Positions 47,157 to 50,470 of a DNA stretch of 64,000 nt are shown here, in pieces. Source of the DNA: Synechococcus sp. MU1643 (GTDB lineage: Bacteria > Cyanobacteriota > Cyanobacteriia > PCC-6307 > Cyanobiaceae); assembly GCF_020514095.1 (NCBI RefSeq), contig NZ_VTKY01000002.1, positions 248,001 to 312,000 of the forward strand, written 5' to 3'. Positions within the stretch are counted from its first letter, which is position 1, and each line of letters starts with the position of its first letter. Under the pieces are notes generated by a model, which had not been told where the DNA came from, ran no database searches, and worked only from the letters and a program-made list of their open reading frames with translations. The translations under genes and the position numbers were made by a program.

Positions 47157-48319
47157 GCGAGTTCGAGCGGCTGGAGCAGAGGCTGGCGGCGGGGCAGTGG
47201 GTGCCCCTGGCGCCGGAGGCGGATGCTGCCCCCATCGATCAACTGCCGCCAGGCCCGGGTGTGCTGGTGCGTAGTGGTGGCAGCAGTGGCGGCAGCCGTT
47301 GCTGCGCCCAGCCGTCGCTGCATCTCGACCGTTCGGCCGCAGCCACCGCCCATTGGTTGACGGGGATCGGCCTTGACCCCGCCGCCACTCTGCTGCTCAA
47401 TGCACTGCCTCACACCCATGTGAGTGGTCTGATGCCTTGGTGGCGCGCCGGCTGTTGGGGCGCGGGGCATCAGCCACTGGCGCCGGGGTTGATGAAAACC
47501 CCCACCGAATTGCTTGCGTTCTGCCAGGGCCTGCCTGCCTGGCGGACGACCTCTGCATTGCTGTCGTTGGTGCCCACGCAGCTGGCGCGTCTGCTGGCCC
47601 ATCCCGACGGGGTGGCCTTCCTGCAGCAGCTGCAGCTGATTTGGATCGGTGGCGCTGCCCTTCCGCCTCCGTTGGCGGATCAGGCTCGGGCGTTGCAGCT
47701 GCCGCTGGCGCCTTGTTATGGGTCAACGGAGACGGCGGCGATGGTGACGGCATTGCCACCAGACCGCTTCTTGGCCGGCGAGCCGGGGTGTGGCGACCCG
47801 CTCATGGATGTGGAGCTGCGGCTGGCCGCTGATGGGGCGCTTCAGGTGCGCACTGATCGGTTGGCCCTGGGCCGTTGGTGGGCGGATCAGCCCGATCGGT
47901 GGGAACCGCTCAGGGATGCTGATGGCTGGTGGCGCTCCGGGGATCGGGCCATGTTGACCCCAGGCCTCCAGATTGCGGGCCGGATCGATGGTGCCATTCA
48001 CTCCGGCGGAGAAACCGTGTTTCCCGAGCAGCTGGAGGAGCGTTTGATGACCCCGATTCAGGCGGAATCACTCCCGGTGAGCGCCGTGCTGTTGCTCGGT
48101 GTGGATGATCCTGAGTGGGGACAGCGGTTGGTGGCCCTCGTCGGCAGCATGGACGCTGCGGTGTTGCCGCGGCTTGAAGCCCTCACACTGTCCTGGTCAC
48201 CGGCGGAGACGCCTCGGCGTTGGGTCGTATGCCCCGACTTGGCGCCCTCGGCGCTGGGGAAATGGCAGCGCCAGCGCTGGCGGGAGTGGTTAGAGCGGTT
48301 GGATGTGGCCGAGGCTTGA
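47153..48319 (+). CDS. menE: o-Succinylbenzoate--CoA ligase
   Basis: Adenylates o-succinylbenzoate and forms its CoA thioester. The 388-residue ANL-superfamily protein has a P-loop-like LVRSGGSSGGSRC, LLNALPHTHVSGLMPWWRAG, and APCYGSTETAAMVTALPPDR. The C-terminal lid has DGWWRSGDRAML and IAGRIDGAIHSGGETVFPEQ, followed by APSALGKWQR with the late catalytic Lys. It is short for an ANL ligase, which fits MenE. The last 30 bases overlap the convergent thioesterase gene. Confidence 0.93.
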   Translation: MSEFERLEQRLAAGQWVPLAPEADAAPIDQLPPGPGVLVRSGGSSGGSRCCAQPSLHLDRSAAATAHWLTGIGLDPAATLLLNALPHTHVSGLMPWWRAGCWGAGHQPLAPGLMKTPTELLAFCQGLPAWRTTSALLSLVPTQLARLLAHPDGVAFLQQLQLIWIGGAALPPPLADQARALQLPLAPCYGSTETAAMVTALPPDRFLAGEPGCGDPLMDVELRLAADGALQVRTDRLALGRWWADQPDRWEPLRDADGWWRSGDRAMLTPGLQIAGRIDGAIHSGGETVFPEQLEERLMTPIQAESLPVSAVLLLGVDDPEWGQRLVALVGSMDAAVLPRLEALTLSWSPAETPRRWVVCPDLAPSALGKWQRQRWREWLERLDVAEA

Positions 48320-48739
48320 CGCCTCTAGCCAACGGTCCACGCCATCGGGCAGAGCACAGCGGCGCCGGGTGTTGACGTCGATGGCCACATGGCGCAGGCA
48401 GCCTGTGGCGACAAGCTTGTCCTCCAGCAGCACCTGGCTGTTCACCGCAAGGCTGCTGGGATCAAGCCGTTTTGGTTCCAGGCGGATCAGCAGCTTGTCG
48501 CCCACCTGCACCGGGACGCGGAAATCGGCATGGCAGTGCACGATCGGCAAGGCCACGCTCGGTTGCTCTCCGCGGCCGCCAGGGAAGACTGAACCCGCTG
48601 GTAACCCAAACTGCTCCAGGCTTTCCTCCCAGGCCTGGTGGCACCAGCCCAGCAGCTGCTGAAAGTGCATCACGCCAGCGGCATCCGTGTCGCTAAAGCG
48701 CACGGTTCGGCTCAGCTCCAGCCAGGGGGCAGAGGTCAT
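48290..48739 (-). CDS. 1,4-dihydroxy-2-naphthoyl-CoA hydrolase (hotdog thioesterase)
   Basis: Releases DHNA from its CoA ester before prenylation. The 149-residue 4HBT-type hotdog protein has TVRFSDTDAAGVMHFQQLLG with the catalytic Asp (about residue 19), and VHCHADFRVPVQVGDKLLIR. In cyanobacteria this activity is named DHNA-CoA hydrolase. The placement beside menF, menA, menC and menE supports the assignment, though hotdog thioesterases are hard to assign by sequence alone. Confidence 0.9.
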   Translation of the reverse strand: MTSAPWLELSRTVRFSDTDAAGVMHFQQLLGWCHQAWEESLEQFGLPAGSVFPGGRGEQPSVALPIVHCHADFRVPVQVGDKLLIRLEPKRLDPSSLAVNSQVLLEDKLVATGCLRHVAIDVNTRRRCALPDGVDRWLEASSLGHIQPL

Positions 48740-48859
48740 GGCGATGTGTTGTTAGAGCCGGTGCCGATTGTCACCCTGACAGAAATTTCGCCCCAAGCAT
48801 GGCCGCGCCATCGCCTTCGAGCCCCCGTCCGTCCAGAAGGCCTGGCAGGCCTTCCTGCA

Positions 48860-49234
48860 TCACATCCCGGTGGTGTCGGCGATCATCGGCAGTAGTGATT
48901 CGGCACTGGGCCATCTGTTGGCGCTCAGGCGCAGCAGCCAGTAGCTGATTAACGCTCCAGCCACCATCGGCAGGGGCCAGAAGGGAAGGCCCTTCGGGAT
49001 GAGACGCCGTTGCTGGAGCGCCAGCACACTCCAGAGCACAAGCCCCAGGGCGGCAATGGGGCCAAACAGATGCCATTGCAGCGATCCGCTCAGATCACCG
49101 GTGAGTGCTGCCCCCGTCGCGCGGGTCAGAAAGCAGGTGGGTCAAGGAACGCAGGTGAGGGCACGCAACGGATAGCCCAGGCCGGGAAGGCCTGGATGCA
49201 GTCCCTTGAGCCACAACCCACCAGTGAAAGTCAC
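48860..49234 (-). pseudogene. DUF2752 membrane protein gene interrupted by an in-frame TGA
   Basis: From a GTG at 49234 the minus strand reads MTFTGGLWLKGLHPGLPGLG, then YPLRALTCVP, a TGA at 49144-49142, then PTCFLTRATGAALTGDL, two hydrophobic helices (FGPIAALGLVLWSVLAL and FWPLPMVAGALISYWLLRL) and a TGA stop at 48862-48860. The whole resembles the DUF2752 family, in which the stop position is the first Cys of a CPxC motif. No frameshift is needed. Total is 124 codons with the stop at codon 31. No start codon favours the downstream part, so it is probably a recently inactivated gene. A sequencing error is possible; selenocysteine is unlikely. Confidence 0.78.
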
Positions 49235-49285
49235 GGGCAGCAGGTAGCCCGTGCGTTACAACCGCCGCAGAAAACGGTTCAGAGA

Positions 49286-50470
49286 TCAGCGATCCACCGA
49301 TCCCATGATCACGTCGATGGAACCGAGGATGGCCATGATGTCGGCCACCTTGTGTCCCTTGAGGATGTGGGGAAGGATCTGCAGGTTGTTGCTGTCGGCA
49401 GCGCGGATCTTGAAGCGCCAGGGGGTGACGTCGTTGTTGCCCTGGATGAACACGCCGATCTCACCCTTGCCAGACTCCAACCTGGTGTAGAGCTCGCCAT
49501 TGGGGATCTTAAAGGTGGGAGCCACTTTTTTGGCCACGTACTGGAAATCGAAACCAGCAGCGTCGCTGCCCTTGCCTTCGTTGAGGCGCTTGGCTTCGAG
49601 GTTTTCGGTAGGGCCGCCGGGAATCATGTCGCAGGCTTGGCGCAGGATCTTGAGTGACTGGCGCATTTCTTCGATGCGCACGCGATAGCGGGCATAGCAG
49701 TCGCCTTCCTTCTCACAGGCGACCTGCCAGTCGAAGTCGTCGTAGCACTCGTAGTGATCCACCTTGCGTAGATCCCAGGGCACACCAGAGGCGCGCAGCA
49801 TCGGGCCGGAGAGGCTCCAGTTGATGGCGTCTTCCTTCTCGATCGTTCCCAAACCTTCAATTCGGCGCCGGAAAATCGGGTTGTTGGTGATCAGCTTTTC
49901 GTATTCATCGATCTTGGGGCCGAACCAGTCGCAGAAATCACGGCACTTCTCAAGCCATCCCCAGGGCAGATCAGCGGCGACGCCGCCGATGCGGAAATAG
50001 TTGTTGTTGATCAGCCTTTGACCAGTGGCGGCTTCCCAGAGGTCGTAGATCATCTCCCGCTCGCGGAAGATGTAGAAGAACGGCGTCTGGGCTCCAACGT
50101 CCGCCAGGAAGGGTCCAAGCCAGAGCAGGTGATTGGCGATGCGGTTGAGCTCCAGCATCAGCACCCGGATGTAGCTCGCCCGCTTGGGGACAGGGATATT
50201 CGCCAGTTTTTCCGGGGCGTTCACCACGATCGCCTCATAGAACATCCCCGCCGCGTAGTCCATGCGGCTCACGTAGGGCACGAACATCACGTTCGTGCGG
50301 TTCTCAGCGATCTTCTCCATGCCGCGATGGAGGTAACCGATCACCGGTTCACAGTCGACCACGTCCTCACCATCGAGGGTGACGACAAGCCGCAGCACCC
50401 CGTGCATGGAGGGGTGGTGGGGCCCGAAGTTCACCACCATGGGCTCCGTGCGCGTTTCCAGCTGCGTCAT
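49286..50470 (-). CDS. ndhH: NAD(P)H-quinone oxidoreductase subunit H
   Basis: A core subunit of the thylakoid NDH-1 complex, which takes electrons from ferredoxin in respiration and cyclic electron flow. The 394-residue product begins [20 protein letters not shown], has [39 protein letters not shown], and ends [18 protein letters not shown], the conserved C-terminus. It is full length. It is divergent from rsmH by 54 bases and lies just after the DUF2752 pseudogene on the opposite side. Confidence 0.98.

Follow-up and report, generated by a model that had tools for sequence, protein, structure and literature searches.

Decay of a DUF2752 gene and its convergent neighbour next to ndhH in Synechococcus sp. 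MU1643

The locus

The window analyzed here is a stretch of 64,000 nucleotides from the genome of Synechococcus sp. MU1643. The locus of interest lies between two intact genes on the minus strand, ndhH (positions 49286-50470) upstream and a gene at 48290-48739 downstream. The latter we take to be DHNA-CoA-thioesterase-like. The initial annotation stated that the space between the two genes would otherwise count as a 545-base empty spacer before ndhH. The gap exists, but it sits 3' of ndhH, between ndhH and the thioesterase-like gene, and its coordinates give 546 bases. Within it lies the remnant of a DUF2752 (PF10825) gene, which runs on the minus strand from a CTG codon to a deletion junction (48906-49282) and was identified by its PF10825 match and its DNA identity to Synechococcus sp. 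MU1642. On the plus strand lies the 5'-end remnant (48799-48910) of a convergent 225-codon membrane-protein gene, labeled MP225 in this report.

MU1642 is the closest intact relative found; its DNA is 93% identical along 413 bases without gaps, a span that takes in the end of ndhH. Its gene order is ndhH, DUF2752, MP225 and the thioesterase gene. Comparison with MU1642 gave 0 nonsynonymous and 30 synonymous differences in ndhH (pN/pS 0; protein unchanged), and 8 nonsynonymous and 10 synonymous differences in the thioesterase-like gene (pN/pS 0.26). Judged by these substitution counts, both neighbors are constrained.

Lesions in the DUF2752 gene

When its in-frame TGA is read as Cys, the sequence from 49234 to 48860 scores 42.3 bits against PF10825 (Pfam curated cut-off 27), which places it in the DUF2752 family. 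The part after the TGA scores 29.6 bits by itself against the same cut-off, and the 30 residues before the TGA, searched alone, gave no match to PF10825. The frame stays open for 93 codons past the stop. The initial annotation had proposed that the TGA (49142-49144, minus strand) lies in the reading frame, flanked on either side by DUF2752-like sequence, and that it falls on a conserved Cys position; both proposals were confirmed. Frames were read in 29 relatives with the locus (L003-L031). At the position of the TGA, codon 47, all 29 aligned relatives have Cys (TGC in 20 of 22, TGT in 2 of 22), and none of them ends naturally there, an outcome for which the initial annotation had allowed. Its observation that a Tyr replaces a family Cys also held, with Tyr at codon 37 (49172-49174, minus strand) where 29 of 29 relatives have Cys. 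Across these relatives Cys is invariant at codons 37, 47 and 50; the window has Tyr, a stop and Cys, so the invariant set is not preserved. Codon 44 (49151-49153, minus strand) encodes Cys in the window and Gly in all 29 relatives.

The damage was shown to be greater than initially described. Only one in-frame TGA had been reported, but a second in-frame stop exists, a TAA at codon 9 (49256-49258, minus strand); out of 22 relatives, this codon specifies Gln in 17, Arg in four and Ser in one. The suggestion that one base change explains the stop falls short of a total of two stops, two altered invariant residues and three deletions. The gene extent first given, 49234-48860, does contain the DUF2752 core, but the frame conserved in relatives begins upstream at a CTG codon (49280-49282, minus strand). 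This codon is the probable ancestral start: of the 22 relatives with a match extending to codon 1, 21 have CTG there and one has TTG. At its other end, the frame first assigned to DUF2752 includes about 48906-48860, which is the antisense of a scrap of the convergent gene joined by a 508-base deletion.

Two other readings were tried and rejected. A stop conserved across relatives was ruled out, as the TGA and TAA codons flagged in the relatives' matches are natural C-terminal stops. A relocated intact copy was ruled out as well, since the broken copy is the sole PF10825 match in the 2.07-Mb genome.

Deletions and the convergent gene

The deletions were defined by blastn comparison with the MU1642 locus (L032), the two larger ones from the offsets of the matching pieces. 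The junction of the 508-base deletion lies at 48906-48910. This deletion took out the natural stop codon of DUF2752 together with most of MP225, and fused the 3' end of DUF2752 to the MP225 scrap. A 75-base deletion lies within the MP225 remnant, with its junction falling on a CACCAC repeat (48870-48875), and a 1-base deletion shifts the reading frame of the remnant at 48809-48810 (plus strand). The remnant is the only MP225 match in the genome (E 8.5e-7, residues 4-33 of 225) and is also matched at the DNA level; in MU1642 the gene is intact at L032 3340-4017 (minus strand). The lesions are absent from intact relatives (the TGA from 29, the TAA from 22 and the three deletions from MU1642), as is expected of a pseudogene.

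MP225 is a conserved helical protein of 225 residues, convergent to DUF2752 in many relatives including other genera of the family (L019, L021, L025, L030). Besides that of the window, 15 genomes of the genus match MP225, and DUF2752 was matched in 15 of these 15. A DUF2752 match without MP225 was found in seven genus genomes, a count that includes incomplete genomes and one with a broken DUF2752 copy (G001). Searches with MP225 returned no match in Pfam and, in NCBIfam, only an insignificant match to YciC (9.4 bits, cut-off 227). As a separate observation, one of the 15 genus genomes with MP225, G027, carries an in-frame TGA at codon 30 of that gene (L016 822-1496), a position occupied almost invariably by Trp in relatives.

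Selection on the remnant

Selection was assessed over codons 1-124 by comparing the window with MU1642 and nine other intact copies, and changes were polarized by the majority of those nine. Between the window and MU1642, 16 nonsynonymous differences over 268 sites and 13 synonymous differences over 104 sites were counted (pN/pS 0.48). The corresponding ratio was 0.15-0.25 for MU1642 vs the nine other copies and 0.10-0.38 across all 45 pairs of the ten intact copies. The window branch received 15 changes (12 nonsynonymous, counting both stops, and 3 synonymous), while the sister branch leading to MU1642 received 8 (3 nonsynonymous and 5 synonymous). This difference between the branches gave a Fisher p of 0.07 on a small sample. 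The 12 of 15 on the window branch fit the neutral nonsynonymous share of 0.72 calculated from site counts (p = 0.77) and do not fit an assumed constrained share of 0.40 (p = 0.002). Six sites could not be polarized and 4 of them are synonymous, so the window count is tilted toward nonsynonymous changes. With the small sample and p = 0.07 in mind, selection on the window branch appears to have been relaxed.

Pseudogene and alternative explanations

A pseudogene is strongly supported because of the extra TAA, the three deletions, the two changes at invariant residues and the relaxed pattern of substitution. We are nearly certain that the locus is a decaying pseudogene pair, DUF2752 and the convergent MP225, formed after the split from MU1642. 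The same lesions and substitutions bear out the recent pseudogene that the initial annotation had listed among its options. The 93% DNA identity and the frame that stays open for 93 codons past the TGA indicate that the decay is recent, and the lesions are known from one strain of the species.

An intact gene hidden by assembly or sequencing error is very improbable. The genome is a 13-contig assembly, and errors could be suspected on that ground. For the gene to be intact, both stops, both missense changes at invariant residues and all three deletions (508, 75 and 1 bases) would have to be artifacts, clustered in a single gene pair whose neighbors on either side are intact. Completeness of the assembly is 99.99% and contamination 0.09%. 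A broken DUF2752 copy of its own also occurs in G001, a relative assembled as a single contig.

Even less credible is programmed decoding of the TGA, by selenocysteine (Sec) insertion or natural suppression, to give a full-length DUF2752 protein. The TGA does stand in for Cys and the frame does continue for 93 codons, and the initial annotation had mentioned Sec as conceivable. The machinery for Sec speaks against it. SelA gave no match in the genome, although the E. coli control was found. The best SelB match reached 194.7 bits against a cut-off of 242.25; matches to this family below the cut-off occur in many genomes, as 14 of 14 controls matched and 2 of 14 exceeded the cut-off. In the search for tRNA-Sec, for which 150 of 387 first-look candidates were scored, the best match reached 46.5 bits, just below the gathering score of 47, and was identified by ARAGORN as tRNA-Ser(tga). 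The best 8 of the 11 sub-threshold hits were assigned by ARAGORN to Ser (4), Leu (2), Gly (1) and Tyr (1). In passages of a 2005 survey, SelB and SelC are treated as signatures of Sec decoding, and Prochlorococcus and Synechococcus selD homologues are named where it deals with bacteria lacking the Sec-decoding trait (PMC1273633). The locus itself also argues against such decoding. The upstream TAA would also have to be passed and cannot encode Sec, relatives use ordinary Cys codons at the TGA position, and the C-terminus has been swapped for the antisense of another gene.

Scarcely worth considering is a shortened functional gene started internally after the TGA, for although a frame of 59 codons is open from GTG 49039, it has no Cys-rich family core, an unrelated gene supplies its final residues, and nonsynonymous changes of the window branch go on within the post-TGA part (codons 101, 108, 110, 121 and 123). 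With the locus thus read as a pseudogene pair, DUF2752 drops out as a candidate for stop-codon recoding and is an ordinary dead gene.

Start codon in intact relatives

In intact relatives, the DUF2752 gene appears on balance to begin at the conserved CTG, which would then be a non-canonical start kept through evolution. Codon 1 is CTG in 21 of the 29 relatives and TTG in one (L013), this set of 22 comprising L003-L014, L016-L023, L028 and L029. The invariant Leu at codon 5, unlike codon 1, is encoded by four different synonymous codons. In the 22 relatives, constraint on codons 2-18 is similar to that on codons 29-95 (pN/pS 0.32 vs 0.35). In L003-L012, no ATG, GTG or TTG lies between the upstream in-frame stop and the CTG, and in L007, L009, L010, L012 and L014 the first such codon in frame after the upstream stop comes at codon 14-23, inside the conserved region. 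Counting against a CTG start, the match begins later and without a CTG at codon 1 in the seven other, mostly more distant, relatives.

The position of the CTG relative to ndhH varies. Among the 19 genus loci with a DUF2752 match, 13 (those of the window and G001 among them) have it at or just past the ndhH stop. In 2 loci the distance is greater by about 65 bases, and in 4 by about 565 bases. In the cases of about 565 bases, an opposite-strand open frame of about 175-190 codons stands between ndhH and DUF2752. Such a frame was seen at about 1822-2385 (in the ndhH direction) of L076, L079, L081 and L082; the window is without it. Coupling to the ndhH stop was considered as a general reason for the CTG and was dropped given this variable placement. 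The CTG is kept in L009, L010, L012 and L014 despite the intervening frame, and coupling therefore cannot be the general reason. A consequence for annotation may be expected, in that gene-calling programs that accept only ATG, GTG and TTG as starts would truncate DUF2752 in intact relatives or overlook it.

Fold and putative function

The model of an intact DUF2752 protein (pLDDT 85.4) consists entirely of helices: a long one at the N-terminus, short ones surrounding the Cys-rich core, and two more long ones. The MP225 model has a pLDDT of 83.7. Neither model matched a PDB fold at E up to 0.001. The likeliest fold for MP225 was that of choline transporter-like protein 1, with a probability of 0.90 but an E value of 0.57 and a TM-score of 0.49. 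Sequence searches of the PDB returned one weak hit each for DUF2752 and MP225 (E 0.054 and 0.86). A search of a library of papers for DUF2752 or PF10825 returned no mention. As a guess, DUF2752 is a putative small membrane protein whose Cys-rich loop might bind a metal or form a disulfide.

Proposed course of decay

The ancestor would have carried ndhH, the small DUF2752 gene, the convergent MP225 and the thioesterase gene in this order, as MU1642 does now. Selection on the DUF2752/MP225 pair very probably lapsed in the window lineage after its split from MU1642. Point mutations created the TAA at codon 9 and the TGA at codon 47 and changed the two invariant residues. Deletions of 508, 75 and 1 bases took away the stop codon of DUF2752 and most of MP225. 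We infer the order of these events, and likewise the absence of a functional product; a ribosome starting at the CTG would make a peptide of 8 residues. The large deletions could have arisen by slippage between short repeats. For the 75-base deletion the repeat would be CACCAC, and for the 508-base deletion only about four shared bases, CCCA, are present.

Recurrent loss in the genus and comparison with relatives

DUF2752 has been lost repeatedly. A total of 148 genomes were searched, that of the window (G000) included, and 61 have a PF10825 match. The genus is represented by 34 genomes, 19 of them with at least 90% completeness and at most 5% contamination. In these 19, DUF2752 is open in 13, broken in 2 (G000 and G001) and without a match in 4 (G008, G020, G023 and G026), and ndhH is present in all 19. 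In a tree built from ndhH, G000 falls together with G031 (support 0.999), whereas G001 clusters with G033 and G028 (0.83); G031, G033 and G028 all have open copies. Since the lesions of G000 and G001 differ and the two genomes group apart with such relatives, two separate inactivations are indicated. Elsewhere, the thioesterase match starts 10 bases past the ndhH stop codon in G002 (87% complete) and 17 bases past it in G026. In genome G013, a short stretch after ndhH (L083 from about 1819) resembles, by eye, the first residues of a decayed DUF2752. Taken together, a single Synechococcus-type genus has repeatedly lost a dispensable gene for a small membrane protein, and in the window the convergent neighbor was lost along with it.

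The second broken copy, in G001 (L067 1825-2019), resembles that of the window in being a DUF2752 remnant right after ndhH with an early TGA. It differs in that its TGA occupies a different codon (following LWIK), the Cys core has been lost by deletion and the frame is shifted. A tblastn search of this locus with MP225 (E up to 1e-3) gave no match. The intact gene of MU1642 offers the closest comparison. It lies in the same place after ndhH, in the same frame and with a recognizable family core, and its DNA identity to the window copy is 93%. Unlike that of MU1642, the window copy is interrupted by two in-frame stops and altered at two invariant residues, and it has lost its 3' end and the convergent neighbor to deletion.
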